From a virus, in IMG/VR virus record IMGVR_UViG_3300005613_000053, positions 1 to 64,000 of that record: 64,000 nt of DNA. One strand, given 5' to 3'. Each line of letters starts with the position of its first letter. The first letter of the stretch is position 1. Positions 9,926 through 28,485 of this stretch are shown piece after piece. The notes beneath the pieces were generated by a model, which saw only the letters and a program-made list of their open reading frames with translations, ran no database searches and was not told the origin of the DNA. A program made the translations under genes and the position numbers.

Positions 9926-10495
9926 TTATTCAACAACAGCCGGTCTGAGTATTGTAGGCGTCAAAGCACCACCCACCTGCCACTTACTTTCCGGAAATGG
10001 CTCGTTAATTTCCACAAACCATGAAAACTCCGCCACCCTCATAGTACCGGACTTCACAGCATTATAAGACACATTCTCCACCAGACTATCCAGCATATAT
10101 GTATCCGACAATCCTCCTGTTGGGTCCCATCTCGTCTCATTCAAAATCCTCAACTGAAGATTCTCAGGGCTTGTCATTATCTCAGTCAATGCCGTTGCCA
10201 GCGTCGACACATATTCAACCCCATATTTCTCATTATCATTGGTCACTGTCAGCATACACTGAAAGTCATACCTCGGCCTCTGCGCCCTGGTAGTTGCCCA
10301 CCTGTTAGCCCCTGACCCCGGCTCTATCTCAAAAGACGGATATGCACCTATCGGGAGCACACGCCTTAGCCCCTCAAAGACATTAAGAGCAGTATCCTCA
10401 CCCTCATACTCAGCCACAACCCTATTTATACCCAGGTTGTTCCTCTCCAACAGGGCAATCAAAGTCTTAATTATATTACTTGGATTTGTATAAAT
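9926..10495 (-). CDS. Neck or tail-terminator-like protein, 5' end displaced by an HNH gene
   Basis: An approximately 189-residue alpha/beta protein (WVEIN-type strands such as AEFSWFVEINEPFP). Its position between connector and tube genes suggests a tail terminator or neck role. The reading frame continues upstream of the first ATG/TTG (TTG 10462) to an ATT at 10495, and ATT-TAT-ACA-AAT-CCA matches the first codons of the HNH gene just before it except for the third base of the start codon. AGAGGTG stands 4 bases before the ATT. I infer the original gene began MYTNPSNIIKTL and now restarts at ATT, or less likely at TTG. Confidence 0.65.
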   Translation of the reverse strand: MYTNPSNIIKTLIALLERNNLGINRVVAEYEGEDTALNVFEGLRRVLPIGAYPSFEIEPGSGANRWATTRAQRPRYDFQCMLTVTNDNEKYGVEYVSTLATALTEIMTSPENLQLRILNETRWDPTGGLSDTYMLDSLVENVSYNAVKSGTMRVAEFSWFVEINEPFPESKWQVGGALTPTILRPAVVE

Positions 10496-10504
10496 AACAC
10501 ACCT

Positions 10505-11170
10505 CTATGCAGCTACAGGCCAATCAGCCTTTCTTGTTTTCTTCCCAAATTTCATATGAAGTCCTTTATGACAATCATAACATAAAGTCACACCATTATC
10601 TAAATCAAACCTCTTCTCTGGAAAATCAGCCCAACAATCTCTATGATGAGCCACTAATTTAACTCCCCTATCACCACAAATCTGACAAGTAAAATCATCC
10701 CTCTTATAGATATCCTGTCTCCATTTCTTATATCTTACATCAGTTCTAAACCTCTCCCTGTTATACTCCCTCTCCTCATCAGTCAAGAACTTATTTGCAA
10801 GCCCCGTCTCTCTTACCTTTTCTATTTGCAAACAACCACAAGACCTTGTATGCCCACTTATCAAATAACTCCTAAAAACAATCTTCTCACTACCACATTC
10901 ACATTCACAAACCCACTTTTCAAAACTTCCATTAAACTTTCCAATTACTAATAATCTTCCAAATTTCTGTCCTTTAATATCTCTATCAGCATATTTAGAG
11001 CATCCACAATGCTTTTTACGACCCTGAATCAGATTACTATGCCATGTCTCAATTTCTTCCCCACAATCACACTTACATAAATACTTTCCACTCTTCTGTC
11101 TCGATAGTATTTTCAACATTCCCACTCTACGTCCTATTAAAGGCTTCTTTTTGGATGGATTTGTATACAT
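10505..11170 (-). CDS. HNH homing endonuclease inserted at a gene start
   Basis: A 221-residue protein with two copies of a Cys-rich module (YLCKCDCGEE...HCGC and WVCECECGSE...SCGCL), the type seen ahead of HNH domains in phage endonucleases. The C-terminal HNH follows (CQICGDRGVKLVAHHRDC...NGVTLCYDCHKGLH). Its first codons (MYTNPS) are those of the gene downstream, and a 12-base direct repeat flanks the body at 10481-10492 and 11156-11167. Its TAG stop is in frame with the downstream gene. It is probably a free-standing homing gene using the host gene's start. Confidence 0.85.
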   Translation of the reverse strand: MYTNPSKKKPLIGRRVGMLKILSRQKSGKYLCKCDCGEEIETWHSNLIQGRKKHCGCSKYADRDIKGQKFGRLLVIGKFNGSFEKWVCECECGSEKIVFRSYLISGHTRSCGCLQIEKVRETGLANKFLTDEEREYNRERFRTDVRYKKWRQDIYKRDDFTCQICGDRGVKLVAHHRDCWADFPEKRFDLDNGVTLCYDCHKGLHMKFGKKTRKADWPVAA

Positions 11171-11493
11171 TAGTAATACCTGACCCCTACCGACTCCAAA
11201 TCATTCCTTTTAGCCAACTTCACAGCCAACTTTTCAAACTCCTTGACTATCGCTTCCTTGGCCTCATGGTCAGAAAAACCTACACCAATCTCCATCTTAT
11301 CCTTGGTATCTTTCCGAGTTGTATATACCTCTACCCCCTCATTCTTCCTGATTCTGTCTGCCATCCTCTGAATCTCAAAGTGGACATTATTATATGTAGA
11401 AGAATCAGAATCACTTTCTCTCTTAAAAGTAAGTGACAGGTCTACAGCCAATTCCTTGGCCAGGATTAGAAGTTCTTCAGCTACCCTCTTCAT
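11170..11493 (-). CDS. Small leader-bearing protein
   Basis: 107 residues; leader KRVAEELLILAKELAVDL at residues 2-19. The body is alpha/beta with EIQRMADRIRKN and IVKEFEKLAVKL helices and ends SVGVRYY. It overlaps the HNH start by one base, so it lies between two endonuclease insertions. No catalytic motif is visible. Confidence 0.7.
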   Translation of the reverse strand: MKRVAEELLILAKELAVDLSLTFKRESDSDSSTYNNVHFEIQRMADRIRKNEGVEVYTTRKDTKDKMEIGVGFSDHEAKEAIVKEFEKLAVKLAKRNDLESVGVRYY

Positions 11494-11502
11494 CTCAACC
11501 TC

Positions 11503-11988
11503 CTAGAAATCAGGTTCAGGTATTGCCGGAGGCTGCATATTTGGAGGCATTGTATGACTATAATGACTCTTTCTCTTCTGCCCCGGTATCCTATGACTAA
11601 AACGCTTCATCGCAAAAACAGACCTCCTTGAATCATCAATATGAGTCTGCATCTGGTCGGTCATATTCTGCTCCAGCTGCTGGAATTCAGTCAACATAAG
11701 AAGAGCAGCAGTCCAATACCTGGAATACCTTCTTAAATCTCCCGGGAAAACCCTCTTAGTGTTCCCATCAGGCTGAACCGCATTCATTCCCCTCATCGGT
11801 GTATGATATACGTCCTCAAGTATGGCATCTACCTCACGGTCAACAGTCTCCTGAAACCTATTAACCATAGGCTGATTTACCTTGGCCATCTTACCCTCAC
11901 CTATCTGCATAACTCTCAGCACATCCTGGATATCAGTCCATGAACCTGAATAAAATTCCTCAGAAGTAGTAGGAGATATATCTGCCAT
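11503..11988 (-). CDS. Probable head or neck completion protein
   Basis: 161 residues, mostly helical with aromatic and Met/Gln-rich segments (YWTAALLMLTEFQQLEQNM) and a Pro-rich tail (MPPNMQPPAIPEPDF). The start ATG overlaps the HNH stop as TAATG, and its ribosome site GGAGGG lies inside the last codons of the HNH gene. The first eight residues, MADISPTT, are shared with that HNH. It is probably a virion assembly gene, judged by its connector-cluster position. Confidence 0.65.
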   Translation of the reverse strand: MADISPTTSEEFYSGSWTDIQDVLRVMQIGEGKMAKVNQPMVNRFQETVDREVDAILEDVYHTPMRGMNAVQPDGNTKRVFPGDLRRYSRYWTAALLMLTEFQQLEQNMTDQMQTHIDDSRRSVFAMKRFSHRIPGQKRKSHYSHTMPPNMQPPAIPEPDF

Positions 11989-12800
11989 TATGCTACCCTC
12001 CTTTTAGACGAACTTATAAGATTTCCCTTCATACAACCACATGACTTTACCTCACCCCGCCTTAACTTAGTTCCTACAACCTTCTTTTCAATTCCACAAA
12101 TACACCTACACATAAAACTAGCATGGCCATCCTTGGTAGAACCCTCACGCCTTAATACTGTAAAATAACCAAAAGTTAGACCTGATATATCCACCTTCTT
12201 TTTAACAATCCTCAAAGGCTTATGTCTCCTATTTTTTGAACAATACTCATCCCATTGCTTCTTAGTATTCCCCTCTTTCCCATATAAACGATGGAACTCA
12301 TTATGACACGTTTCACAAGCCGTCACACCATTATCAACATCATACCTACCCTGTTTACACCAATGGTAAGCATCCTTATGATGAGCTACAAGATTACCAC
12401 CACGGTCATCTCCACACACCCGACACATATAACCATCTCTTTCATACACATTTCTACGCCACTCTGCATTTCTTGGGTCTAAATCACGATTTACAGCAAG
12501 CTCTCTATCTTCATCTGTAATGTCTGGATTATATATAATCCCATGCCAAATCTCTTTATGTAAACAACCACATGAAGATGTACTACCTCGAACTAAGGAC
12601 TGCCCCAATATATCTTTCTCACTTCCACAATCACAACGACACTTCCATACTGACTTTCGATATTTAGTTCCCGCACGACTCAACACGACAAGACGACCAA
12701 ATCTCCTACCGACAAGATTCAAAGCACTACGACGACCCATATCTCTCATATGAGCCACTCGGTTATATTGCTCTCCAGTTGTAGGACTAATATCAGCCAT
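11988..12800 (-). CDS. HNH homing endonuclease with captured N-terminus
   Basis: 270 residues. After the shared MADISPTT come a Cys module (WKCRCDCGSE...SCGCL) and an HNH core (CRVCGDDRGGNLVAHHKD...NGVTACETCHNEFH). A second Cys module follows near the C-terminus (CRCICGIEKK...SCGCM). The order Cys module-HNH-Cys module differs from the related gene at 10505-11170. The shared octapeptide is encoded with several synonymous differences, so this is an older capture than the 10505 event. Confidence 0.85.
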   Translation of the reverse strand: MADISPTTGEQYNRVAHMRDMGRRSALNLVGRRFGRLVVLSRAGTKYRKSVWKCRCDCGSEKDILGQSLVRGSTSSCGCLHKEIWHGIIYNPDITDEDRELAVNRDLDPRNAEWRRNVYERDGYMCRVCGDDRGGNLVAHHKDAYHWCKQGRYDVDNGVTACETCHNEFHRLYGKEGNTKKQWDEYCSKNRRHKPLRIVKKKVDISGLTFGYFTVLRREGSTKDGHASFMCRCICGIEKKVVGTKLRRGEVKSCGCMKGNLISSSKRRVA

Positions 12801-13080
12801 TTCTTGAACCCCTTCTAGCCGTCCTAACGCCCAACACGCCTTCGGCTATTTTCTCAACATCAACATTCTGTACACTACTTCGTATCCTTCTGGCCACACC
12901 CTTCAAGTCACTTGAAGCCTCAACCACCACATCATATCCACTGCCACCCTCAACATGCCTGCCATCAGTCACCACAAATCCTGACTCGACACACTTCGAC
13001 ACTTCCTTCCTCACGGCCATTATCAAAGCCGCAGAGGTTATCAGACTCCCTATCTCAGCAATCTCCCTGGATATATCCAT
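12793..13080 (-). CDS. Small protein with weak leader
   Basis: 95 residues from ATG 13080 (MDISREIAEIGSLITSA), chosen because AAGGA lies 5 bases upstream and the longer frame overlaps the previous gene. N-terminal helix, then a beta/alpha body (YDVVVEASSDLKGVARRI) and a basic end. It overlaps the HNH start by 8 bases. The function is unknown. Confidence 0.6.
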   Translation of the reverse strand: MDISREIAEIGSLITSAALIMAVRKEVSKCVESGFVVTDGRHVEGGSGYDVVVEASSDLKGVARRIRSSVQNVDVEKIAEGVLGVRTARRGSRNG

Positions 13081-13081
13081 G

Positions 13082-13276
13082 CTATTCCTTCTCTCCGTCC
13101 CAACCCTTATCAACTTCCTCGAAGAATTCATCCTTCTTATCATCCGGAATCTTATCAGGACTATCAACATTCCACTTGTCCAGCTTCTTCTGGAAGTACT
13201 CCTGATACTCCTTCTTCTTACCAGACTCCGCTAAAACCTTCCTTGCCACACTATTCGCCATCTTGTCCATTCTCAT
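13082..13276 (-). CDS. Very small acidic leader-type protein
   Basis: 64 residues from ATG 13276 (MRMDKMANSVARKVLAES). The body KKKEYQEYFQKKLDKWNVDS...FFEEVDKGW resembles a compact family of small proteins seen in many phages and bacteria, recalled by pattern and with no known function. The translation start AGGAGGTTTGTGATGAGAAT is identical to that of the upstream gene, which indicates local duplication of the start region. Confidence 0.7.
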   Translation of the reverse strand: MRMDKMANSVARKVLAESGKKKEYQEYFQKKLDKWNVDSPDKIPDDKKDEFFEEVDKGWDGEKE

Positions 13277-13286
13277 CACAAACCTC

Positions 13287-13562
13287 CTATACAGATATTC
13301 CATACCTTTTTAAATGAGCCGTAAACCCGTCTATAATATCCCACGCAACATCATTAGGGTCCTTGCCACCGGTATCCATATCCTCAACCACATCTACCAC
13401 TTCCCCTAATAAATCATCCATATCAACATTACTTTTTATAAAATTCGATATAGCCTTCTTTGAAGCCTTTTCTACCGCAGGATTCACTCTTGCACTCCTA
13501 CTCCCTGACTCCAACTCTCTAGCAATAAATACCAACTCTTTTGCTATTTTATCCATTCTCAT
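13287..13562 (-). CDS. Small leader-bearing protein
   Basis: 91 residues from ATG 13562; leader MDKIAKELVFIARELESG. The body is acidic and helical (MDDLLGEVVDVVEDMD, WDIIDGFTAHLKRYG). It shares its ribosome-binding and start region with the next gene. The function is unknown. Confidence 0.7.
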   Translation of the reverse strand: MRMDKIAKELVFIARELESGSRSARVNPAVEKASKKAISNFIKSNVDMDDLLGEVVDVVEDMDTGGKDPNDVAWDIIDGFTAHLKRYGISV

Positions 13563-13573
13563 CACAAACCTCC

Positions 13574-13936
13574 TCAATCGTCGTATATCCTATAATCCAA
13601 CTCAACAGCAGCTAAATTTGCCTTCGCATAAGGCGCAGCAATCGCAAGCCTGCCAATCCACTTCTCTCCCGGCTTCAATTTCAAGAATGGATAAAAAGTA
13701 GAAGCAGGCTTACTTCCTATCTCCAAATAGTTCGTATCATCCAAATTTTCAAATATAGAGATACCAGGCGTCGTTACATCTCCAAGACCCAAAGCCTCTT
13801 CAGTAGTCCCTATCTCCTGAACACTTCTTACCAACTTCGCAGTTGTCTGGGATGCTGCAACAGCACCACTCGAGACATTATCAGTCAAGTCTCCATTATT
13901 CAGTTGTAATTTAAAGTTATACGAAAACTCCGACAT
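13574..13936 (-). CDS. Virion protein of the connector region
   Basis: 120 residues, beta-rich (FSYNFKLQLNNGDL, IGRLAIAAPYA, AVELDYRIYDD). Hydrophobic strands alternate with polar loops, as in small virion adaptor or decoration proteins. It lies between the putative neck gene and the leader cluster. No leader is present, which sets it apart from its neighbours downstream. Confidence 0.6.
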   Translation of the reverse strand: MSEFSYNFKLQLNNGDLTDNVSSGAVAASQTTAKLVRSVQEIGTTEEALGLGDVTTPGISIFENLDDTNYLEIGSKPASTFYPFLKLKPGEKWIGRLAIAAPYAKANLAAVELDYRIYDD

Positions 13937-13951
13937 CTCCTACCTCCAATT

Positions 13952-14749
13952 CTAATAAGGTCCTTGATTAGGCTTCCATCCCCTAAGCCTTCCAGTCAAA
14001 AACGGAATACCATGCGCTCCAGAACTACCGCCCCCACCTCTAATTCCATCAAAATAGAACCTTGTCGGCGGAGCAAGATAATTACCGGTCTTGAACTTCT
14101 CATTCTGCATAGCATTATCAGCCCTCTGCTCAGCATTGCTCTTCAATGTCTCCAACTGACCAACAACATCACCACCGCCACCATCAATCTCATTAGGCCC
14201 TATCGCAAATATCAGCCTGTATCTCCACAGGTCATAATCCAAAAGCAATTTCTCCATACACATCGCAAAAGCCAGGTCAGTCATCACACCTTCCCAATTT
14301 GTCGGAGCACTATTTACTGTATAATCCGTCGGAGGACCAAATGCAGTCGTATTGATAATCGACACAGCAGCCGTATAGAACCCCTCCAAAATCTCCGCCC
14401 TGAAATAATCAAACCAGTAATCAGCCTCTACTGTATCCCTCGGCCTAGTATCAGCACCCGTATCAACAACACCAACCTGAAAAGTACCATTATCATAATC
14501 TATATTCGTAACAGTAGCAGACGACACCAAAACACCATTCTTCCTTATTCTTAAAGGAGCATCAGACAACCAATTACCATATGTCACTCCCCATGTAACC
14601 AGGTCATCAGGACTGAGGTTACAAGGCTCATCATGTATGCAAATCTGCCTAAAAGACATCAACCTCGGTGTCATTAAGTCATCAATCAAATGATTAAACT
14701 TAGCCGAACTTGCTACTCCTGTTGGTATATAAGTGCCTGGAAAAGTCAT
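13952..14749 (-). CDS. Probable head-tail connector or neck protein
   Basis: 265 residues. It starts with ATG overlapping the stop of the HNH gene (ATGA). The first residues MTFPGT are echoed in that HNH (MAVFPGT). The central part is aromatic-rich (WFDYFRAEILEGFYTAAV) and the C-terminus is Gly-rich (GGGGSSGAHG). Context (next to other neck-type genes) suggests a connector. The family is not recognised. Confidence 0.6.
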   Translation of the reverse strand: MTFPGTYIPTGVASSAKFNHLIDDLMTPRLMSFRQICIHDEPCNLSPDDLVTWGVTYGNWLSDAPLRIRKNGVLVSSATVTNIDYDNGTFQVGVVDTGADTRPRDTVEADYWFDYFRAEILEGFYTAAVSIINTTAFGPPTDYTVNSAPTNWEGVMTDLAFAMCMEKLLLDYDLWRYRLIFAIGPNEIDGGGGDVVGQLETLKSNAEQRADNAMQNEKFKTGNYLAPPTRFYFDGIRGGGGSSGAHGIPFLTGRLRGWKPNQGPY

Positions 14750-15405
14750 AGTTTTTCTCCCTCATAATACTCAAGATATGCAGCCCCCTTACGTAGAATG
14801 TCTGGATTCTTGCCATTACCTATCATCCTATTACATCCATTACACAACAAAGCACGAACAGCCCCCGTAGAATGGTCATGGTCAACATTAGCCACCTTAG
14901 CTTTGTTCTGGCTTCTCATTTCTATCCTTTCGCTACAAATTGCACACCTACCATCCTGCTTCTTATACATGGTTCGATAGTTGGAATAAGTAAATCCAAT
15001 GATACCATACTTCTTCCAGCATCTCTCTTTCTCCGCCTCATAATTTTTAGGGTCATCAAGACGCTTCATATCCGATTCTTTCCGAGCTAATACGCAGACC
15101 TCACATCTGCACCCATAAATCGAATACCCAGTCAATCCGTGTTCTGGAGGCTCCTTACCCCTAAGTCCAGCCTTATACTCATCTCTTTTCTGCTTCCGAG
15201 CCTCCACACACACATCACACCGACATCCATACACAGAATAGCTTTGAGAAGTTCCATGCTCCGGCGGCTCTGTACCTTGCAACCTCTCACGCCTCTTTCT
15301 GGATACCTCCCGCTTTGCATCACGACAAATATCACATCTACACCCAGTATTATAGCCGTATTGCCCATGCTTGACATCTTTCGTTGTTCCCGGGAATACC
15401 GCCAT
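14746..15405 (-). CDS. Endonuclease VII-type HNH protein with three Cys repeats
   Basis: 219 residues. Three tandem modules of the form YGCRCDVCxxARK occupy residues 1-110. A recombination-endonuclease-VII-like core follows: DGRCAICSERIE, VDHDHSTGAVRALLCNGCN and a closing AAYLEYYEGEKL. Cys pairs and the DHDH motif would bind zinc and metal. Its start MAVFPGT mirrors the MTFPGT of the gene it precedes, the third such pair in this window. It is probably a homing-type nuclease. Confidence 0.85.
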   Translation of the reverse strand: MAVFPGTTKDVKHGQYGYNTGCRCDICRDAKREVSRKRRERLQGTEPPEHGTSQSYSVYGCRCDVCVEARKQKRDEYKAGLRGKEPPEHGLTGYSIYGCRCEVCVLARKESDMKRLDDPKNYEAEKERCWKKYGIIGFTYSNYRTMYKKQDGRCAICSERIEMRSQNKAKVANVDHDHSTGAVRALLCNGCNRMIGNGKNPDILRKGAAYLEYYEGEKL

Positions 15406-15407
15406 GA

Positions 15408-15785
15408 TTAATCCTCCAACTCTCGCTTCATAAACTTCACCATCTCATCAGGCGTCATCTTCATCCCAATCTTAATCAATCCAATAGAACTATCCGGCCA
15501 GTTATCAGCCAATTTCACAGAAGCCACCTCATATGTAGCTCCACCCCACTTCTTCACAAAACCATTCAGAGACTTTGCCAAATCCTTAAAATCTGCCTTT
15601 ACCTCTGCCTTATCCTGCTCATTTCCATAAGACAAATAATGAATCCTCGCCTCTATAAAATCCTTACCCTTAGATACCGAAATAGTTCTCTCATAGTTAT
15701 CAGTCTTCTTACTACCCAGACCCATACCAGAACTCAACTCCTTAGCAGCCAAAACCAACTCTCTCGCTATGATATCATTCCTCAT
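15408..15785 (-). CDS. Leader-bearing protein
   Basis: 125 residues; leader NDIIARELVLAAKELSSG at residues 3-20. The body has strands ERTISVSKGKDFIEARIHYL and a helical end (DEMVKFMKRELED). It overlaps the previous gene by 4 bases. The function is unknown. Confidence 0.7.
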   Translation of the reverse strand: MRNDIIARELVLAAKELSSGMGLGSKKTDNYERTISVSKGKDFIEARIHYLSYGNEQDKAEVKADFKDLAKSLNGFVKKWGGATYEVASVKLADNWPDSSIGLIKIGMKMTPDEMVKFMKRELED

Positions 15786-16492
15786 GTCAAGTCCCTCAAT
15801 CTCAAAGTTCCCTTTTCATCAGGCCAGTAACCCGGAGTAACTATCTTCTTCTCACTCGGACCCCACTCAAAAATATCCAGAAATTCAATCATCCCGCGCG
15901 GTCCCTGGCCGCCATAACCAAACGAAAATCCCTTAAATACATGCGACGCCTTAGAACCATCGACAGCTCTCTTGAAATAAGCCTTAGTCGTCCACTCAGC
16001 TTTACCTCTATCATACTGGAAAGTTCCACCCAGAAGGTCATAACCAGCATCTTTTATTCTCCTGGCATTCTCCAGACTATCCCTCGTCGCCCCATCCTTC
16101 TTCAACTGTAAAGGCCTTATTACCGTAAAATCACTCTTTACAGCCACCTTATCACTGGCAATCCTCTTTATCCTGAAAGCCCCTGTCTTCTCCAGCAACT
16201 TCTCCAGCTTGCCATAACTTCCCCTCGACCTCGAAAAAGCATTCCCTACGACCTGAGGAGCATTCTTCAACCTGAGTTCCATCACACGGTCACGCCACCT
16301 GATACTCCTGAAATCCTCACTCTTATGAGGGCCCCTTACGAAAATAGCATCCAAATTGTCACTAACCCAGAAATCCTTACCACCAGAATACTTAGGACTG
16401 AACTGAACCGCTCCCCTCAACTCATCGAGAGAAACCTTATCAGAAACCAAGTCTCTTGCGACCTTAACCAGTTCCATGGCAATCCTGTCCAT
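15782..16492 (-). CDS. Leader-bearing protein, large body
   Basis: 236 residues; leader DRIAMELVKVARDLVSDK. The body is mixed and rich in Gly, Arg and aromatics (FKGFSFGYGGQGPRGMIEF, GYWPDEKGTLRLRDL). Its size makes it one of the larger cargo-like proteins of the cluster. No motif identifies an activity. Confidence 0.7.
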   Translation of the reverse strand: MDRIAMELVKVARDLVSDKVSLDELRGAVQFSPKYSGGKDFWVSDNLDAIFVRGPHKSEDFRSIRWRDRVMELRLKNAPQVVGNAFSRSRGSYGKLEKLLEKTGAFRIKRIASDKVAVKSDFTVIRPLQLKKDGATRDSLENARRIKDAGYDLLGGTFQYDRGKAEWTTKAYFKRAVDGSKASHVFKGFSFGYGGQGPRGMIEFLDIFEWGPSEKKIVTPGYWPDEKGTLRLRDLT

Positions 16493-16502
16493 AACATTCT
16501 CC

Positions 16503-16892
16503 TTAGCTCACATACGCTGCTAGGTCATACCTATCCCAAGGGTCTTTAACAGAACCCGCAGCCATAGCCATTATCACACCATGCAATTTTTTAAATCTTC
16601 CATTCTTATCATCAAAATAAACTTCGAACTTCCATTCCTTTGCATTCGGCTCTCCGGTGTCCCTATCTTTTATATATCTTGCACCCTTAAGTTCCCAGTT
16701 TATTACTGCACTATCCATCACCTTCCAAAGCCTATCAACTGCTCCCCATCCAACATCCTTAAACAAACCCTTGGAATACTTAGACAGCAAAGAATTAACC
16801 CTATTTACAGCAGTCCTCTTACTCAAACCGTCCAAAGAAGTCTCACCCTCGATATATGAAGCAATTTTCTCAGCTATTCTGTCCTGGTCCAT
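16503..16892 (-). CDS. Hypothetical protein with weak leader
   Basis: 129 residues; N-terminus MDQDRIAEKIASYIEGET is a weaker form of the leader. The body includes YIKDRDTGEPNAKEWKFEVY and GVIMAMAAGSVKDPWDRYD. The short gaps to both neighbours place it in the same operon. The function is unknown. Confidence 0.65.
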   Translation of the reverse strand: MDQDRIAEKIASYIEGETSLDGLSKRTAVNRVNSLLSKYSKGLFKDVGWGAVDRLWKVMDSAVINWELKGARYIKDRDTGEPNAKEWKFEVYFDDKNGRFKKLHGVIMAMAAGSVKDPWDRYDLAAYVS

Positions 16893-16894
16893 AC

Positions 16895-17281
16895 CTACCT
16901 CACATTAAACTTAGCAACCCCATCCTCCGATACACCCTTCAACTTATACTTCGGGCTGTACCTGGACTGTAAATACTTCAAAAGCTCACTTGCCTTCTTC
17001 TCATCCATGTTCGCAACCTGCATCTTTGCAGAGGTAACAAACCTTGAACCTCTATACTGTCCCAGGGATACTTTCAGTCCCTGAACTGAAAGCCCCTTAC
17101 TCTTTAGGTCTTTTATCAAAGTTTTATGTAAGTGGTCAGAGGCCTCATTTTCCCACTGGTCTTTAATGCCCTTGATTTTCTGACGGACATCAAAGAAAAC
17201 GGCCGAAAACAAATCTTCCGGCCGCTTCTTTGCAGTAAGCACACAAACCGCCACTCTATCAGCAATGGCGCCTCTTTTCAT
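16895..17281 (-). CDS. Hypothetical protein with weak leader
   Basis: 128 residues; N-terminus MKRGAIADRVAVCVLTAKK. The body is basic and alpha/beta with FFDVRQKIKGIKDQWENEA and a C-terminal domain ELLKYLQSRYSPKYKLKG. The function is unknown. Confidence 0.65.
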   Translation of the reverse strand: MKRGAIADRVAVCVLTAKKRPEDLFSAVFFDVRQKIKGIKDQWENEASDHLHKTLIKDLKSKGLSVQGLKVSLGQYRGSRFVTSAKMQVANMDEKKASELLKYLQSRYSPKYKLKGVSEDGVAKFNVR

Positions 17282-17300
17282 TACAACCTCCTACATGACA

Positions 17301-17552
17301 TTATGTGAAGCACATAGCCTTCAACGACCTCAAGTTATCTATAAACTTTCTCGCTTTGACTGTCCCGTTCCCCCCGAAATATGAGGCCTTTATCTGCCCC
17401 AGTTTCCCCTCCGGGATATTAAAAACGAAGACAACCTTTTTCCCGCCATCTGGAGTCTTCTGCGATTCAGCAGTCTCCAACGGAAAATCGAGAGAGCATA
17501 GATAGGCCGAGAAATATATGTCAGATGTCCTATATAACTTTACATCACCCAT
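17301..17552 (-). CDS. DUF5659-like small protein
   Basis: 83 residues from ATG 17552, 6 bases after GGAGG; the longer frame begins within the preceding gene. LYRTSDIYFSAYLCSLDFPL, KKVVFVFNIPEG, then a basic end KARKFIDNLRSLKAMCF follow the pattern of the DUF5659 family as I remember it. Proteins of this kind are common in phages and have no known activity. Confidence 0.7.
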   Translation of the reverse strand: MGDVKLYRTSDIYFSAYLCSLDFPLETAESQKTPDGGKKVVFVFNIPEGKLGQIKASYFGGNGTVKARKFIDNLRSLKAMCFT

Positions 17553-17563
17553 CCCGCACCTCC

Positions 17564-17854
17564 TCATACCTCTCTTATGTCACCGTTACCATAGTCATGA
17601 GCCACAGTTTTCAAAGGGCCGTCACCGTGTTCTTTCCTCATCCTCTTGCCGGCATCCTCATTCCTCTTGGTCATTTCCTTATTGAACGACTCCTTCTTAC
17701 TTGGCCATCCACCACCTTTTAGTATGAAACTACAGTTATCATACGTCCTTTTAGCGGTTTCCCCACAGTCACAGGCTACTTCCCGAGGCGCTTTGCCTAT
17801 CGGGAAGTCCCTGTCAAACTGCCCACACTTTTCGCATTCATAGCCGAACAGCAT
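17564..17854 (-). CDS. FmdB-type zinc-ribbon protein
   Basis: 96 residues from ATG 17854 (SD GGGAG, 7 bases). The start YECEKCGQFDRDFPIGKAP, then CDCGETAKRTY, matches the FmdB regulatory/zinc-ribbon fold with four Cys (CxxC...CxC). The C-terminus is basic. It may bind nucleic acid. It overlaps the stop of the upstream gene by a few bases. Confidence 0.8.
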   Translation of the reverse strand: MLFGYECEKCGQFDRDFPIGKAPREVACDCGETAKRTYDNCSFILKGGGWPSKKESFNKEMTKRNEDAGKRMRKEHGDGPLKTVAHDYGNGDIREV

Positions 17855-17858
17855 GGCT

Positions 17859-18800
17859 CTACTCCCGCCCTGTAACGGCATCTGCCGTCTTTTCATCAGT
17901 CACAGGCACCCTGTCCACACCATCCTGCATCGCGGCCTTTTTAGCCTGCAAAGCAGCAATCTGAGCATCAATATCAGACTCAGTCTCCTCAGCAACCATC
18001 CCCTGCACTGGAGGTGCCTCAGAACTACCCTCAGGAGCCCCAGAATCGCCCTCAGGAGCCTCATCGGCTACTTTCGGACTCTCTATACCATTAGCCTCTC
18101 TGTTGGCCTCTATTTCCTTCCTACGGGCTTCTTTTTCGGCCTCTACCTGCTCAGTCTTGGCTTCAACAGCCTCACGACTCGGAAGTGGCTGACCAGCATT
18201 CATAGCAGCAGCTTTACTTCCACCGCTTATACTACAAGTACCATCATCCTGGACAACCTCCATAGTCACCTTTTCCTTGAGCCTGGCCCTCTCAGCAATC
18301 GACTTAAGGTCATTCTTGCCCTCGAGTCTGGCCAATCTCTCCCTGACATCCTCATCACCACGGATGACTTCCATCTTGCCATCCTTTTCACGGTTTTTGG
18401 CTGCCTCCCTGGCTTCTTCCTTGGCCTCGTTATTCCTCTTAGACACCTGAGTATCACGTATGTCGATTGACTCCTGCAAATCCTCATCAGAATTCACAAT
18501 CTCCATGTCACCAACCTTACGGTCCTTCTTAGACTCAGGCAAAACCTTCTCGGTGTCCATATTCCTTACAGCATCCAAGGTCTCTTCCGAGTAAGGCAGA
18601 ATCCACGGTTCTTCCGGGTTATTCTCTGCCTGCCTCTTTAGAATGTCCAGGTCTCTTGTGTCATCGAACTTGCGCCCGTCCACAATAAGCCTTTTATTCG
18701 CCTTATCATGCTCTATGACTGCTCCAGCACCAAAAGTCTCCTTTATGTAACCCAGGTGCAACTCCCTCCTTGTCAGAATGAACTTTTCACTCTCACTCAT
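17859..18800 (-). CDS. Charged coiled-coil protein, probable virion-associated
   Basis: 313 residues. The N-terminal 70 residues form a small domain (GYIKETFGAGAVIEHDKANK, FDDTRDLDILKRQAE). Long Glu/Lys/Arg helices and a Pro/Glu/Ser linker follow (EAPEGDSGAPEGSSEAPP). The N-terminal pattern is one I recall from other phage proteins of unknown role. It has no leader, so it separates two runs of leader-bearing genes. Confidence 0.65.
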   Translation of the reverse strand: MSESEKFILTRRELHLGYIKETFGAGAVIEHDKANKRLIVDGRKFDDTRDLDILKRQAENNPEEPWILPYSEETLDAVRNMDTEKVLPESKKDRKVGDMEIVNSDEDLQESIDIRDTQVSKRNNEAKEEAREAAKNREKDGKMEVIRGDEDVRERLARLEGKNDLKSIAERARLKEKVTMEVVQDDGTCSISGGSKAAAMNAGQPLPSREAVEAKTEQVEAEKEARRKEIEANREANGIESPKVADEAPEGDSGAPEGSSEAPPVQGMVAEETESDIDAQIAALQAKKAAMQDGVDRVPVTDEKTADAVTGRE

Positions 18801-18876
18801 TTTCCATCCTCCTTCATCTTGTGTTATATTGCCAGACCTTCATGGCCCGCTTTCTTCCCCGGCACCATACCGGAAA

Positions 18877-19572
18877 TCATCCAATCATAAACGGTATATT
18901 AGACGGCGCTATCTTCTTCGTCTGCTTCCTGCCATCAGGACCCTGCGCCACCACGGTTATGATATCATTCTCATTCTTTGCAGAACTATTCACCTTCAAC
19001 TTATAAGTGATATCCTGCTTATTCACAAAAGTCTTCTTGTCATAAACCTTCTTGGCCGCTTTAACCTGCATCCATACCTCAAGGCGGTCATCCCCTACAA
19101 GTTTACCAAGCTCTTTCTGATACCTATTAAGAAAATAAGTCTCAGCAGTAGTATCATACATGATAGGCTTCTCAGCAAGAAGTTCCTTCGCAACCTTCAC
19201 AAGTTCTGAAGCCATCTTTGTCTTCATCATATGATAACCTACCCACTCATCCTCAACAGGGCCCAAAACAGCACGACCAAAATGCTCCCACTTGTCAAAT
19301 AAGTCATTCTTACCATCCCTACTCAACATCTTAACCACATCCTGATATTTACCAGAAGCTATCTCATAGAAATAAGGAAGTTCTTCCATCCTCTTAATTA
19401 CTTTCCTACCCGAAGGAAGATTCATCAACTCCTTCTTAACAGCCTTCCAGTTCACATCATCTATACGCCAGATACTATTAAGAATTGTAATCAGGCCACT
19501 AATACCTTTATCCCTTGACCTATAAAGCTCCCTATAGAGCTCTCTTAATTCCTTATCACTATATCTGGCCAT
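18877..19572 (-). CDS. Two-part protein with an internal leader
   Basis: 231 residues from ATG 19572 (GAGG 6 bases upstream). The first 115 residues are helical (ARYSDKELRELYRELYRSR at the start). At about residue 120 of this start a full leader occurs, KTKMASELVKVAKELLAEK, preceded by ATGATG at 19230-19225 and ATG 19215. A body with DRLEVWMQVKAAKKVY then follows. This looks like an in-frame fusion of a leaderless gene to a leader-bearing one, or a polyprotein meant to be cut. Confidence 0.7.
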   Translation of the reverse strand: MARYSDKELRELYRELYRSRDKGISGLITILNSIWRIDDVNWKAVKKELMNLPSGRKVIKRMEELPYFYEIASGKYQDVVKMLSRDGKNDLFDKWEHFGRAVLGPVEDEWVGYHMMKTKMASELVKVAKELLAEKPIMYDTTAETYFLNRYQKELGKLVGDDRLEVWMQVKAAKKVYDKKTFVNKQDITYKLKVNSSAKNENDIITVVAQGPDGRKQTKKIAPSNIPFMIG

Positions 19573-19580
19573 AACAAACC

Positions 19581-19934
19581 TCAAATCTTTTTAGCAAGTT
19601 CAACTATGCTCTGATACTCCTTCGGTTCCCCGAAATCTTCTTCATCCTGTTTCGCGAACTCCCCAATCCTTTTCTTCATAGCCTTCGCACACTCTTTGTA
19701 ATACTTCCTCTTAGCAGAATCAAAATCATTAAACAAACTATCATCACCAAGAATAGAATACATAGCATCATGCGGGTCAGGCTTCTTTACGGTAGGCTCC
19801 TCGCCACCCTTCATATTCTTATACATCAATTCTAACAACTTCACATGGAGAGGACTCCGAGGCAAGCTCCAAGTACCAGCAGTCATCTCTTTAGCTGCCG
19901 TCACCAATTCTCTTGCTACTCTTTGTTTATTCAT
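19581..19934 (-). CDS. Leader-bearing protein, paralogue of the next upstream gene
   Basis: 117 residues from ATG 19934; leader NKQRVARELVTAAKEMTAG. The body contains YSILGDDSLFNDFDSAKR, which aligns with YSIIGDVFARYLVGDRDYA in the gene at 19949-20236, so the two bodies are probably diverged duplicates. The function is unknown. Confidence 0.7.
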   Translation of the reverse strand: MNKQRVARELVTAAKEMTAGTWSLPRSPLHVKLLELMYKNMKGGEEPTVKKPDPHDAMYSILGDDSLFNDFDSAKRKYYKECAKAMKKRIGEFAKQDEEDFGEPKEYQSIVELAKKI

Positions 19935-19948
19935 CTCAATCTCCATCA

Positions 19949-20236
19949 TTAAACAGGCAAGTGCTTCTTAACAACTCTCGTCAATTCAGTCTGTAGGTCT
20001 GAAAACAACTCCAGATATCTTCCATCATCAATCAACGGTGTAAGATTGCCCTCAAAAGGCTTCTTTGATAGCGTCTTCAACTGCTTTATAGCATAATCCC
20101 TATCACCAACCAGGTAACGAGCAAAAACATCACCTATAATAGAATAAACGTCTGCCCTACGCTCCATTGCAGCATCAGCATTCTCAATATCTTTTGCTAC
20201 CTTAACCAGTTCTTTAGCTACTCTTTTCTCGTCCAT
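19949..20236 (-). CDS. Leader-bearing protein
   Basis: 95 residues from ATG 20236 (AGGAGG, 6-base spacer; the longer frame runs through a GC hairpin). Leader MDEKRVAKELVKVAKDIEN. A helical body with YSIIGD is shared with the next gene. The function is unknown. Confidence 0.75.
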   Translation of the reverse strand: MDEKRVAKELVKVAKDIENADAAMERRADVYSIIGDVFARYLVGDRDYAIKQLKTLSKKPFEGNLTPLIDDGRYLELFSDLQTELTRVVKKHLPV

Positions 20237-20254
20237 CATAAACCTCCTGAGGAA

Positions 20255-20278
20255 CGGGCGACCCGAAGGCCGCCCATA
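20255..20278 (-). other. Intergenic UUCG hairpin without U-tract
   Basis: GGGCGGCC-TTCG-GGTCGCCC on the minus strand, between the end of the 20290-20703 gene and the ribosome site of the next. It has no T-run, so it is more likely a 3'-end protecting or processing hairpin than a terminator. A similar hairpin is at 38568-38585. Confidence 0.55.
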
Positions 20279-20289
20279 CCAAACCATCC

Positions 20290-20703
20290 TTACGGAATGG
20301 AAACAGTAGAACCACTGACTCCACCAAACAGCGGGCCTGTTCCATAACGCCTCTCGCCTGTAGCAGCGATAAGCGTATCAACATAACCCTTCTCTGCGTC
20401 AGTCAGAGGAGTTTTATCCAGGTCACGCCCGACAGCACCCAACATCTCAATAAGAACATGTGTCGGCTCAGCATCAATATCACCAAGGTAATTTGACGCA
20501 GAAGCAGTCACTGAACGCTTATTGAAAGTTGTAGCAAGCCACGACCTTGTACCGGTCTGTGTCTGCGGATTCCAAATCAGCTTCAAGAAAGTCTTGATAG
20601 CTGCGAGTTCAGAACCTGTCGGCTCAGTTATCCTTGCATTCCTGGCAATATTCCACACCCAACGTGCATACTGCCACCAACTTGCACTACTTGTTCCGGC
20701 CAT
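20290..20703 (-). CDS. Hypothetical, probably virion protein
   Basis: 137 residues with a Trp-rich N-terminus (SASWWQYARWVWNIARNARI) and a Gly/Thr/Ser-rich C-terminus. No leader, more balanced composition and GC-richer codons than neighbours. It is framed by hairpins on both sides (20255-20278 and 20728-20755), which suggests a separately stabilised, abundant message. No family is recognised. Confidence 0.65.
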   Translation of the reverse strand: MAGTSSASWWQYARWVWNIARNARITEPTGSELAAIKTFLKLIWNPQTQTGTRSWLATTFNKRSVTASASNYLGDIDAEPTHVLIEMLGAVGRDLDKTPLTDAEKGYVDTLIAATGERRYGTGPLFGGVSGSTVSIP

Positions 20704-20727
20704 GATGGGCCTCCTTTCGTTTTTCCG

Positions 20728-20755
20728 CCCTTAGAGGTCATACAAACGATAACCT
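20728..20755 (-). other. Hairpin in a 106-base gap
   Basis: GAGGT...ACCTC stem in the gap between two genes (20704-20809); a second short stem GACCC...GGGTC lies near 20795-20815. No U-tract follows. It may be a processing or stabilising element in front of the 20290-20703 gene. Confidence 0.4.
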
Positions 20756-20809
20756 CAACACAGTCGCGTCATTGCTCCGTGCCGACCCATTTGGGCATAG
20801 GGTCAAAAC

Positions 20810-21094
20810 CTACTTAAGCATCTTATACAACTTGTGAAATAAATCCTGCATCACTTTCATTTCTGCGACAGTGTTTTCAGACCTCTGTATTGCCTCATCC
20901 AGCCTCGCAGTTATTCCCCTCTCATCCGTAATCGACTCTACCTTTTTCTTTACCGACTTTAACAATCTCCCCACCTGCTCGGCATTCGTCCTCACATCTA
21001 TTCTATCAAAACTCCGCAGAAGCCCCGACCCCGACCCAGCAGCCAATAATTTAGCTATCTCTACCAGCTCTTTTGCTATTTTCTTATTATCCAT
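20810..21094 (-). CDS. Leader-bearing helical protein
   Basis: 94 residues; leader DNKKIAKELVEIAKLLAAG. The body is coiled coil (EQVGRLLKSVKKKVESI, AEMKVMQDLFHKLYKML). It is the last of a run of leader genes read before the 137-residue protein. The function is unknown. Confidence 0.75.
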   Translation of the reverse strand: MDNKKIAKELVEIAKLLAAGSGSGLLRSFDRIDVRTNAEQVGRLLKSVKKKVESITDERGITARLDEAIQRSENTVAEMKVMQDLFHKLYKMLK

Positions 21095-21112
21095 TACAAG
21101 CCTCCATCAACC

Positions 21113-21487
21113 TCAATATCTTTTCCTCGCACTTTTAAGAGCTGACATAGCAACATCCAACATTTTTGGCATAAACTCATTTACCCATAATTCTCCAGTC
21201 GGATTGAGCCGGTCATCATCTGAATATTTACCTGCTTGTTTTAACAAATCAGATACCATCAAATTAGCCCGTTTTTCAGCATATTGCTCCACCACTTTTT
21301 CCCAAAGTTTCTCCCCGGCTTTCTTATCCTTCTTCTTCAGAAAGTCCGGCTTCGGCTCATTGGTCTTACCGTCGTTGTCCTTATCCTTATTCTTCCACTG
21401 CTCCTTGAACTCCGGTGGAACTTTACCCTTGGCCGATATCTCCTTAGCCGCTAAAACCAACTCTTTAGCTATTTTCTGTTTATCCAT
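21113..21487 (-). CDS. Leader-bearing protein
   Basis: 124 residues; leader DKQKIAKELVLAAKEISAK. A Lys/Asp-rich linker (KNKDKDNDGKTNEPKPDF) joins a helical body, with EKVVEQYAEKRANLMVSDLL and a C-terminal LDVAMSALKSARKRY. The linker has the DKDNDGKT look of a calcium-binding loop, unproven. The function is unknown. Confidence 0.75.
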   Translation of the reverse strand: MDKQKIAKELVLAAKEISAKGKVPPEFKEQWKNKDKDNDGKTNEPKPDFLKKKDKKAGEKLWEKVVEQYAEKRANLMVSDLLKQAGKYSDDDRLNPTGELWVNEFMPKMLDVAMSALKSARKRY

Positions 21488-21496
21488 AATGCTCTC

Positions 21497-22000
21497 CTAA
21501 ACAATGCCAACCATTTTGCTGTTAATTCTATTCATCAAAGTCGCGACTTCCTTGTCGTACACTGCCTGTGCCTTGAACATCTTCTCCAGCAAATTGGCTA
21601 TTAAAAATAAATCTTTGCCTATACTCAGCATCAGTGCCCCATTGGGTTCTCCCATTCCGCGATACTGATTGCTTCCGCTGTAAGCCTCTTTGATTTCCTT
21701 AGCCAGTCCATAAACCTCACCCATAACACCGTCGGATTGGCGAGTTAAACTTTTTTTCCCAACAGCGTTCTGAACCGCCCTCGTTAAAACATGCATCTTT
21801 TTGGATATTTCCGACAATCGTTCGTCTACCCCTTGTTCGTCAATCAGATTAGCAGCCTTCTTAACCTTCTTCTTACACTTCACGCAATACTTAGTCTGGT
21901 CAAGTACCTTAGAACCGCAATCAGGACACTTAAATGTATCAGCAGCAGCTAAATCTCTAGCCACAGCTACCAACTCTTTTGCTACCATCTTGTTATTCAT
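21497..22000 (-). CDS. Leader-bearing protein with zinc ribbon
   Basis: 167 residues; leader NNKMVAKELVAVARDLAAA, then a zinc ribbon at residues 24-45 (CPDCGSKVLDQTKYCVKC). A long helical domain follows, ending with LMNRINSKMVGIV. The ribbon directly after the leader suggests that a nucleic-acid-binding or scaffold module becomes N-terminal if the leader is cut off. Confidence 0.75.
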   Translation of the reverse strand: MNNKMVAKELVAVARDLAAADTFKCPDCGSKVLDQTKYCVKCKKKVKKAANLIDEQGVDERLSEISKKMHVLTRAVQNAVGKKSLTRQSDGVMGEVYGLAKEIKEAYSGSNQYRGMGEPNGALMLSIGKDLFLIANLLEKMFKAQAVYDKEVATLMNRINSKMVGIV

Positions 22001-22010
22001 TTCAATTCTC

Positions 22011-22520
22011 CTACAGAATAGCCTTAGCTACATTGTTCAGCTCAATCGGTCCCATACCATCCAGCTTCTTCACAATCATCTTGCGAATCTTATCCAACGG
22101 AGCCTGGGCCTTCTTCAACTGGTCACTGATAAGCTCATTGACGGTATTACCTCCGCCCTTGGCATTAGTCCACTTGCTCTCAAACGGGAAACCATCCTTT
22201 GACTTCCTGTCAGTCGGCTGATGCTTCTTCAAAATGGACTTAATCTTTCCCAGGTCAGGACTATTCAAAGCCCCTACAGAATACTGAGATACACTGCCCT
22301 TATTCCACTTTTGCTCAGAAGCCTCTTTCTCACTATCCTGAACAAGCATCGTCAATGACCAGGTCTGAGGACTCAGCATCAACCAAGCCTGTGACATATT
22401 AGTAAAACCATCCGAACCATCAGGGCCCCACACACTATGATTAAATCCAATCTGCCTATCAGCGGAAGTCAACTCCTTAGCTGCCAATATCATCTCTCTT
22501 GCTACCATCTCCCTGTCCAT
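22011..22520 (-). CDS. Leader-bearing protein
   Basis: 169 residues; leader DREMVAREMILAAKELTSA. The body contains IGFNHSVWGPDGSDGF and WSLTMLVQDSEKEASEQKW, then a helical C-terminus with ELISDQLKKAQAPLDKIRK. No family is recognised. Confidence 0.7.
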   Translation of the reverse strand: MDREMVAREMILAAKELTSADRQIGFNHSVWGPDGSDGFTNMSQAWLMLSPQTWSLTMLVQDSEKEASEQKWNKGSVSQYSVGALNSPDLGKIKSILKKHQPTDRKSKDGFPFESKWTNAKGGGNTVNELISDQLKKAQAPLDKIRKMIVKKLDGMGPIELNNVAKAIL

Positions 22521-22530
22521 GACAGTCCTC

Positions 22531-22995
22531 CTAAAACGCCTTTAACTCCACATCCACCAAGTCATCATAACCTTTTCTGACCGCCCTCATGGCTTTATTC
22601 TGAAATCCACCAGTCACACTGTTCACCAACTTACTACGCTGAGCAGTCGATTTTGCTTCCAAAAGTTCCTTCTCCAAATTATCATCAATCATAACCCTCA
22701 CTTTTGGAAGGTCACTATTGGAGAGACCCCAGTAACTAAGAGACATCGGCATTCCACTCTTACCCCAGCCTCCTACTCCCTGATAAGATACTATGAGCTT
22801 TTCACCGTCCTTAATATAAATCCTGGCCCAAATCTGCCTCTCATTCCCCATACTATCCTTTGTCTTAAGGGAATACTTTAAATACGGCTTTTTCTGGTAT
22901 TTATTGTACAACTTGAATAATTCCCTGTCCGTTTCTCCCCCGACAAGGTCTTTTGCTACCTTTAAAAGCTCTTTGGCCACTATTTTGCGATTCAT
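22531..22995 (-). CDS. Leader-bearing protein
   Basis: 154 residues; leader NRKIVAKELLKVAKDLVGG, the closest match to the consensus. The body is basic, with RQIWARIYIKDGEKLIVSY and a helical tail MRAVRKGYDDLVDVELKA. SD AGGAGG. The function is unknown. Confidence 0.75.
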   Translation of the reverse strand: MNRKIVAKELLKVAKDLVGGETDRELFKLYNKYQKKPYLKYSLKTKDSMGNERQIWARIYIKDGEKLIVSYQGVGGWGKSGMPMSLSYWGLSNSDLPKVRVMIDDNLEKELLEAKSTAQRSKLVNSVTGGFQNKAMRAVRKGYDDLVDVELKAF

Positions 22996-23039
22996 AACTT
23001 CCTCCTACATATACAAACAATATCAAAAAATCATAAGGA

Positions 23040-23921
23040 CTAATGTCCCCAACCCATAGCAGTCTGATATTTTGGCTTCCCATCCCACGGATAAGCCCTG
23101 GCATATGACTCTATCTTGATACTACCTCCCGGACTCACCCTTTTGGTCATCTTCGGCCCACTATACTTGCCAGGTCTTGCCACTACATAATCAGCACCAG
23201 CAGAACTCCTAGCTACCTTCTGGTCAACAGGTCTTACTGCTATTGCCTTCTCAGTTGCCCCTACGACCTCGTAAAAGTCTACATTGGTCTGGTCATAACC
23301 CCAGGAAGAATAAAGAATATCTCCCACCTCATAACCATGTCTATACTCCTGACGCTCCTTTTTGCGCCTCTCCTTATCTTCCAAAATCCTCTGCCTATTC
23401 TCAACAGACTTCTTAATCTGCTCATCCCTTTGCTTTTCATTCCTGAACCTGTAATGCCAAATAGGTTTAGCAGCCTTTCCCTGGAAGGCTACCCCATACA
23501 GTTTCCCTCCCTGCTCATAGGTATAAACCTCCATATCCACACCACGCGGTAACTTCGCCTTCTCAATACTCTCAGCACCTCTCGCCTGGGTCGGAATAAA
23601 ACTTGAACGCTCCCACTTTATTCTCGGAAAAGCAGCCAACTCCTTGGCAACCTTTAAAAGTTCTTCAGCAATCCTATCTCTCATAACATCCTCCTTTATC
23701 CTGCCAGCTTCACCCTCTACCACCTTAGCCATCTCTTTCTGGTTGACATCATGTAAACTCTCCATGTCTTCCAGATACATTCCACCCCAGCTAAGTGTAG
23801 TCCTGAGTCTCAGCTTATCGTCCCATATTCCGTCCAGCTCATAATCCGGCCATTCCGCATCTCGAGCCAATATCTCATGGGACGCTTTTAGCAGCTCTTT
23901 AGCTACCCTGCGCCTATCCAT
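23040..23921 (-). CDS. Tandem two-leader protein with internal start
   Basis: 293 residues with leaders at residues 2-20 (DRRRVAKELLKASHEILAR) and again at residues 80-95 (MRDRIAEELLKVAKEL). The internal ATG at 23684 has its own AAAGGAGG six bases upstream, so two products are likely: the full fusion and a 214-residue protein. The second body has a basic helical arm (EDKERRKKERQEYRHG) then GYEVGDILYSSWGYDQTNV, a pattern found in many mobile-element proteins. It looks like two adjacent leader genes fused by loss of a stop. Confidence 0.8.
   Translation of the reverse strand: MDRRRVAKELLKASHEILARDAEWPDYELDGIWDDKLRLRTTLSWGGMYLEDMESLHDVNQKEMAKVVEGEAGRIKEDVMRDRIAEELLKVAKELAAFPRIKWERSSFIPTQARGAESIEKAKLPRGVDMEVYTYEQGGKLYGVAFQGKAAKPIWHYRFRNEKQRDEQIKKSVENRQRILEDKERRKKERQEYRHGYEVGDILYSSWGYDQTNVDFYEVVGATEKAIAVRPVDQKVARSSAGADYVVARPGKYSGPKMTKRVSPGGSIKIESYARAYPWDGKPKYQTAMGWGH
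23682..23694 (-). promoter_or_regulatory. Internal ribosome-binding site and start
   Basis: AAAGGAGGATGTTATG inside the 23040-23921 gene, giving a strong in-frame internal start at 23684. Confidence 0.6.
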
Positions 23922-26244: not shown

Positions 26245-26319
26245 TGGTAGCGGGAGACGGATTCGAACCGCCGACCTCCAGGTTATGAGCCTAGCGAGCT
26301 GCCGCTGCTCCATCCCGCA
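26245..26319 (-). tRNA. tRNA-Met (CAU), initiator type
   Basis: 75 nt with CCA encoded. Acceptor helix GCGGGA/TCCCGC from position 2; position 1 is U and position 72 is U, so there is no 1:72 Watson-Crick pair, the main mark of bacterial initiator tRNA. The D-arm GGAGCAGCGGCAGCTCG and the anticodon loop CTCATAA are like tRNA-fMet. The anticodon stem has only two of the three usual consecutive G:C pairs (A29:U41 replaces the first). The T-loop is TTCGAAT. It could act in initiation and compete with or supplement the host tRNA. Elongator Met is the weaker alternative. Confidence 0.9.
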
Positions 26320-28116: not shown

Positions 28117-28485
28117 TGGTGGACGTGGGGAGATTTGAACTCCCGTCCTGAACGGGCTTACCATATGCCTCTACGTGTGTATCTGAATTTACAGTAATCA
28201 GAAACTGTTTGTCCGTCTTCCCGAACTGCCATCCCGTCTTTCCGGACTGTCAATGGTCTTACCCGATTGTCAGAGCTGTCTGTTAGACCTCAAGGCTTAC
28301 TTGCTCACGCTCGCCTGTTTTGGCTCGGTTGCTTACGCAGCAGCGAGAGCCGGAGCTCTCTCTGCACCGAAAAGATTGATAACGTTGCCGTTTATCAGTT
28401 TGTACCAGATGATTTACGAGGCCAACTGGAATCCTCGACACGCAGCGTATGACTTGCATCCGACAGTCGAATCCTTGTCACGCCC
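28117..28485 (-). ncRNA. ssrA: tmRNA (one-piece)
   Basis: 369 nt. The 5' end GGGCGTGACAAGGATTCGAC pairs with the 3' end CACGTCC-ACCA in a 7-pair acceptor stem. The 3' part has GTTCAAATC as T-loop, and GTTGGCCTCGTAA is a conserved tmRNA element. The predicted resume codon is GGC at 28389 after ATAAAC, giving the tag GNVINLFGAERAPALAAA and a TAA stop at 28333-28335. The Ala-rich end fits proteolysis. It would rescue stalled ribosomes with SmpB, which is not seen here. CCA is encoded in the DNA. Confidence 0.95.

Follow-up and report, generated by a model that had tools for sequence, protein, structure and literature searches.

In the present study, the neck and tail genes of an uncultured phage were analyzed in a 64-kb window of the 68,155-base virus record IMGVR_UViG_3300005613_000053 (positions 1 to 64,000; "the window" denotes this whole stretch, and its carrier is referred to as the window phage). 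These genes lie on the minus strand, and their row is broken up by three HNH-type endonuclease genes, herein designated HNH1, HNH2 and HNH3. Each of the three opens with a copy of the initial codons of the gene it precedes, its host gene (Table 1). The native start has kept its position next to the upstream gene but initiates the HNH gene instead, and the captured codons run in frame into the HNH reading frame. A second host start is located at the 3' end of the HNH gene, accompanied by a Shine-Dalgarno-like stretch that the final HNH codons encode or that follows them directly. By virtue of this second start copy, the host gene is preserved in full. We consider it quite probable that these are homing-type HNH genes that entered neck/tail-region genes in separate events, in each case within the initial 5-12 codons. 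The three pairs of starts, and the placement of all three HNH genes and start copies on the minus strand, agree with a first-pass annotation made from the DNA letters.

Start copies in the window and in relatives without the HNH genes

Three lines of evidence bear on the start copies. First, the paired starts are alike in sequence. Pair 1 (ATGTATACAAATCCA vs. ATTTATACAAATCCA) is identical at 14 of 15 nucleotides (nt) over 5 codons, and the 12-nt direct repeat that the first-pass annotation had described at 10481-10492 and 11156-11167 is an exact match; this near-identity may reflect a recent event or a closely related donor. In pair 2 (MADISPTTGEQY vs. MADISPTTSEEF), all of the first 8 residues are identical, as are 9 of 12 over the full block, and in pair 3 MAVFPGT of HNH3 stands against MTFPGT of host gene 3. 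The host gene had also been said to restart in overlap with the HNH gene, which holds for pairs 2 (TAATG) and 3 (ATGA) but not for pair 1, in which the restart lies 9 nt past the HNH stop.

Second, the start copies exceed chance. When the N-termini of 2069 distinct ATG-start open reading frames (ORFs) were scored against each host-gene family, no N-terminus other than those of the host orthologues and of the matching HNH scored that high, and the next-best ORF N-termini reached 20, 21 and 23 in the three families, compared with 53, 29 and 32 for the matching HNH. On the two window sequences alone, pair 3 is weak (score 21) and does not stand out; it is rescued because the family consensus, MAVFPGT, sits in HNH3, whereas host gene 3 of the window deviates as the odd one out among the relatives, one codon short. 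The copies in HNH3 and HNH2 are both closer to the family consensus than the window host starts. Other neighbouring genes of the window phage are also alike at the N-terminus, through an unrelated shared AKELV..A motif. At least 11 otherwise dissimilar small genes (window 11170-23921 and 37458-37841, minus strand) have an N-terminal motif like MDRxxIAKELVxxAKEL, which is possibly a capsid-targeting or packaging signal.

Third, the captured codons are found at the host start in phages that have no HNH gene at the site. The phages of the clade compared here are uncultured contigs throughout, designated L with a number, and re-fetches or near-identical contigs (L006/L017/L021, L023/L025 and L012/L013/L014) were not counted separately. 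In the HNH-free relatives, whose host proteins are 54-72% identical, the host genes are intact and begin with M[SA]xFPGT[FY]IPTG (most), MAD[IL]SPTTGE[EQ][YF]YSG (most) and xYTNPSN[IL]IKT. When each host start was scanned together with 4 kb of upstream and 2.5 kb of downstream sequence, a second start copy was observed three times in the window, once in L006 and in none of the HNH-free relatives. Close relatives whose host genes lack these codons had been named as the finding that would speak against capture; the codons are present there, in a single copy, and the captured-codon claim stands for this reason. The comparison of relatives also revealed a present/absent polymorphism of the HNH gene at one site between conserved neighbours.

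The HNH signature is intact in all three genes, with PF01844 or PF02945 above the cut-off and the H, N, H and Cys residues in alignment. HNH1 and HNH2 are related to each other (PF01844, zinc-finger-like CxCG repeats, phrog_374), and HNH3 is of the endonuclease VII type (PF02945). The AlphaFold2 model of host gene 1 (predicted local distance difference test score, pLDDT, 78.9) has as its best PDB folds the tail terminators T5 p142 and lambda gpU, and likeness by fold suggests that this gene is tail terminator-like. The model of host gene 2 was too poor and was not used. Cultured relatives of two host proteins and prophage relatives of the tail terminator in bacterial genomes were searched for, and none were found.

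Table 1. HNH genes, host genes and start copies in the window (the left copy starts the HNH gene and the right copy starts the host gene).
Feature	Coordinates	Strand	Details
HNH1 endonuclease gene	10505..11170	-	221 amino acids; begins MYTNP|SKKKPLIGRR; PF01844 E=2.3e-6, phrog_374 E=5.6e-25
HNH2 endonuclease gene	11988..12800	-	270 amino acids; begins MADISPTTGEQY|NRV; PF01844 E=9.2e-6, phrog_374 E=1.1e-34
HNH3 endonuclease VII-type HNH gene	14746..15405	-	219 amino acids; begins MAVFPGT|TKD; PF02945 E=3.8e-20
Host gene 1, predicted tail terminator-like, probable ATT start	9926..10495	-	189 amino acids; 11 orthologues aligned
Host gene 2, neck/tail region	11503..11988	-	161 amino acids; 10 orthologues
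Host gene 3, conserved neck/tail-region protein	13952..14749	-	265 amino acids; orthologues 45-72% identical
Left copy, tail-terminator start (HNH1 start)	11156..11170	-	ATGTATACAAATCCA; ATG overlaps stop of upstream gene 11170-11493 (TAATG)
Right copy, tail-terminator gene start	10481..10495	-	ATTTATACAAATCCA; preceded by GAGGTGTGTT
Left copy, host gene 2 start	12765..12800	-	MADISPTTGEQY; 12 codons, TGEQY as in family consensus
Right copy, host gene 2 start	11953..11988	-	MADISPTTSEEF; last HNH2 codons encode Shine-Dalgarno-like AAAAGGAGGG and TAATG
Left copy, host gene 3 start	15385..15405	-	MAVFPGT as in family consensus; preceded by GGAGGATTAATC
Right copy, host gene 3 start	14732..14749	-	MTFPGT, one codon short of all relatives; ATGA overlap with HNH3 stop

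The tail-terminator site in its empty, occupied and decayed states

The tail-terminator site was observed native with an ATG start (L016), occupied (window and L006) and decayed (L026). L006, L016, L023 and L026 form one supported clade (100/99). In L016, which has no HNH gene, the host ATG is preceded by TGAAGAAAAATCTGTAGAAA. In L006, an HNH gene 46% identical to HNH1 is located at the same site; its left copy, ATGTACACGAATCCCAGTAATCTA, opens a short leader ORF (MYTNPSNLSCLDWCNKSLIWHP) ahead of the HNH gene, and its right copy, ATCTACACGAATCCTTCCAATCTT, is the host start after it. The window HNH1 is fused in frame to the captured codons (MYTNP|SKKKPLIGRR), whereas the L006 HNH reads M|SKMIGRR. 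In L026, the upstream TGAAGAAAAATCTGTAGAAAATGTA, as in the native L016, and ATGTACAC are followed by approximately 100 nt holding an HNH remnant, and then by GAGAGGTGTTTTATC and the host gene with an ATC start. The remnant aligns with the last 23 residues of the L006 HNH with a score of 50, compared with a best score of 40 in 500 shuffles. Only a junction of the two sequences is left in L023/L025, and this looks like a cleaned scar. The claim that insertion was repeated at start codons is strengthened by L006 and L026, which show recurrence at one site. In another pair of relatives, a non-HNH gene with an AKELV-like motif is inserted in L012 (12819-14726, compared with L011 4672-6033), fused directly upstream of the terminator start.

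Origin of the two start copies

The shared blocks differ only synonymously, with 5 differences for HNH2, 4 for HNH3 and 5 for L006. Under unconstrained drift, the probability of an all-synonymous outcome is 0.0004, 0.001 and 0.0003, respectively, values that are somewhat optimistic because the blocks were picked for identical residues. The copies of pair 2 are identical at 27 of 39 nt, and the starts of different phages at 22-31 of 39. The earlier view that the nucleotides had drifted while the residues were kept is not borne out by these results, as all-synonymous change is improbable under drift and pair 2 is as divergent as orthologues. The simplest reading would be that the copies represent orthologous starts from different phages joined by recombination rather than drifted duplicates; recombination between diverged phages is suggested because the pair 2 copies are as far apart as orthologues of different phages.

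Herein, we propose the following course of events. An HNH enzyme would cut or nick the start of an HNH-less allele, and repair from an HNH-carrying relative would copy the HNH gene in. Recombination between diverged phages would then leave one native and one foreign start copy. The differences in the shared blocks would be only synonymous because one copy is native and the other foreign, and no host sequence would be lost on insertion because some form of the host start flanks the HNH gene on either side. The right copy at the tail-terminator site (AGGTG-NNNN-ATY start) was most likely brought in by the element and would outlast the HNH gene. A loss of the element that is harmless to the host start must be precise, and its retention might therefore be favoured. 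The same benefit has been argued for those T4 homing endonucleases that contain embedded promoters (PMC2988022).

Three other explanations were considered. In a simple target-site duplication, offset nicks by the HNH enzyme would open a staggered gap, fill-in would duplicate 15-36 nt, and the copies would then drift in the window phage. The near-identity of pair 1 across 15 nt fits this course. However, pairs 2 and 3 and L006 differ only synonymously, which is improbable under drift, the HNH copies retain family-consensus residues with nothing known to hold them, and the length of the copies varies from 8 to 36 nt; we regard a target-site duplication as unlikely. A very unlikely explanation is that the shared N-terminal peptide is functional in both proteins, e.g. 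as a targeting or assembly signal, and is kept by selection. In its favour, the residues are kept across differing codons, and other genes of the window phage do share an N-terminal motif, but the peptide differs from one HNH to the next and matches the adjacent host gene in each case, no such peptide is present in sister HNHs of the same family, and the left copy in L006 stands on a separate short leader, off the HNH. The last explanation is a group I intron or an intein, in which the HNH would continue the frame of a 5' exon and the host start would be accidental; in fungal introns, endonuclease ORFs are commonly fused in frame to upstream exons. It was rejected as scarcely credible, since no intron RNA was found with Rfam at the gathering threshold or at E up to 10, every HNH gene has its own stop before the host start, leaving no uninterrupted frame with the host, and a complete host gene lies downstream.

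Probable ATT and ATC start codons of the tail terminator

In the window, L006, L010, L011, L018, L022, L023, L025 and L026, the stretch from the in-frame stop upstream to the conserved YTN(P) residues contains no ATG, GTG or TTG, and the next canonical start codon in these ATT/ATC records is at codon 8-13. Codons 2-7 of the terminator vary mostly at synonymous sites and are therefore coding. These results suggest AUU or AUC as the start codon of the tail terminator in the window and in eight further records of relatives, of which two are near-identical; they speak against an HNH-caused mutation in the window. An ATG start is found in the more distant L136, L137, L138 and L140 and in L015 and L016. 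The first-pass annotation had noted that the restored start reads ATT where the captured one reads ATG; damage to or decay of the start was dropped as an explanation, because ATT or ATC is the sole possible start in several relatives, HNH-free ones included. AGGTGTNTTATY ahead of the start is common to the window, L023/L025 and L026, suggesting that the right end with this sequence may travel with the element.

A further, doubtful idea is that the element carries a recoded substitute for the host start, a natural "recoded rescue" like that of engineered gene drives. The HNH target would include the native ATG of the tail terminator. An ATT/ATC start would shield a genome with the element against the enzyme it encodes and persist as a homing-resistance allele after HNH loss, so that the rare AUU/AUC starts of this phage family would be endonuclease footprints. 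That an ATT/ATC start always follows HNH invasion is unsupported, as L011 and L012 exchange the start without an HNH gene.

A transfer RNA (tRNA) gene with a CAT anticodon is located at 26245-26319 (minus strand). It is initiator-like (A11:U24, no strong 1:72 pair, CTCATAA loop), but its anticodon stem (AGG/CCT) has two G-C pairs in place of three. A gene of this type occurs in 9 of 19 records of the phage family, in several of which it is the sole tRNA. A connection with the AUU/AUC starts is conceivable, but the gene is also found in relatives whose start is ATG.

Generality of start capture and points against the proposed insertion mechanism

Start capture was not supported as a general property when 92 distinct HNH ORFs of IMG/VR loci, among them those of the window phage family, were surveyed. 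HNHs located elsewhere in genomes of this family carry no copy of the neighbour's start, and the one other high capture score, in L035, was dismissed because the match is internal and out of frame.

Several points weigh against separate insertion of homing HNH genes. Convincing start capture was absent from 88 other surveyed HNH ORFs and from 5 HNHs of cultured phages. Cleavage and mobility of HNH1, HNH2 and HNH3 are predictions of the proposed mechanism. The start copies are short (12-36 nt), and for HNH2 and HNH3 the left and right ones are about equally close to the relatives. ATT/ATC starts occur with no visible HNH trace in L018, L022, L010 and L011. Moreover, L011 and L012 diverge at the opening codons of the terminator but are near-identical elsewhere, with no HNH gene in view, and the terminator start is thus also exchanged by other routes.

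Comparison with known mobile endonucleases

A close parallel may be drawn to mobile ORFs of fungal mitochondria (Allomyces atp6; Glomus atp6, atp9, cox2 and nad3), in which a foreign gene end has been inserted and the differences are mostly synonymous (PMC3630166). As there, an endonuclease gene lies between two versions of a host-gene end (the three window sites and L006), the copies differ mostly synonymously (HNH2, HNH3 and L006) and the host gene stays readable. However, the carboxy-terminal (3') end is duplicated in the fungal cases and the 5' end in the window phage, the window endonucleases are translated from the captured native start, and the window system consists of HNH enzymes in a phage rather than LAGLIDADG or GIY-YIG enzymes.

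In Corndog-group mycobacteriophages, an HNH gene takes the native ATG of the tape measure gene tmp, which restarts at ACG; peptides of the region were seen by liquid chromatography-tandem mass spectrometry, and ACG initiation or ribosome bypassing was left open as the mechanism (PMC4351075). At the junction of YungJamal (with HNH) and Dylan (no HNH), the upstream gene and the ATG are the same, and the restored copy reads ACGGCAATACATATT vs. ATGCCGATACATATA. Consistent with the window, the HNH gene is on the native ATG right behind the upstream gene, and a host tail gene restarts at a non-ATG codon with its first codons altered. Unlike the window, this single case captures no host codon past the ATG.

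The seg/mob endonuclease genes of T4-like phages are promoter-less cassettes that rely on host expression signals and embed those of the next gene, the mobE start (UAAUGA) overlapping the upstream gene (PMC2988022). Expression signals are likewise shared in the window, where HNH1 starts in the upstream TAATG, HNH2 ends with a Shine-Dalgarno-like stretch and TAATG, and HNH3 ends in ATGA. In contrast to the window, seg/mob genes insert intergenically or split genes, and several of the enzymes cleave at a distance from where their gene is inserted; the review (PMC2988022) makes no mention of a duplicated start of the following gene. In the ShiLan element, an HNH gene is inserted out of frame in a phage methylase gene (PMC11855218). 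This is also a homing HNH that is neither intron nor intein and keeps the host gene readable, although it lies inside the gene in another reading frame, with no duplicated start. In a limited literature search, no endonuclease was found described as duplicating its host gene's start.

Thus, the coding start of conserved genes that are probably essential can apparently be invaded by a selfish nuclease gene with little visible cost, as the native start is taken over by this gene and a second start is left or supplied for the host gene. Such insertion would offer an origin for non-AUG starts in phage structural genes, complementing the Corndog tape measure case, and it predicts exact cleavage targets. 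In addition, repeated insertion might lastingly alter how a phage gene is started.

Other features of the gene row and the window

Further endonuclease genes in the window, at 40248-41315, 42140-42892 and 27395-27931 (minus strand), are of the phrog_4645 type, the phrog_374 HNH type and endonuclease VII-like; no start copying was seen in them. The same gene row of relatives carries a GIY-YIG homing endonuclease (L016 8848-9594) and a TnpB-like ORF (L008 909-1967, recognized by eye only), which makes the row a hot spot for mobile nucleases. Host gene 2 has an in-frame insertion of approximately 98 residues (259 vs. 161 amino acids) in one clade (L016 11480-12259, L023 4858-5637 and L026 4757-5536). 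Finally, a complete transfer-messenger RNA (tmRNA) gene is located at 28117-28485 of the window (minus strand; RF00023, 116 bits, tag GNVINLFGAERAPALAAA), and a tmRNA gene near a tRNA gene is also found in the relatives L189, L192, L193 and L205.

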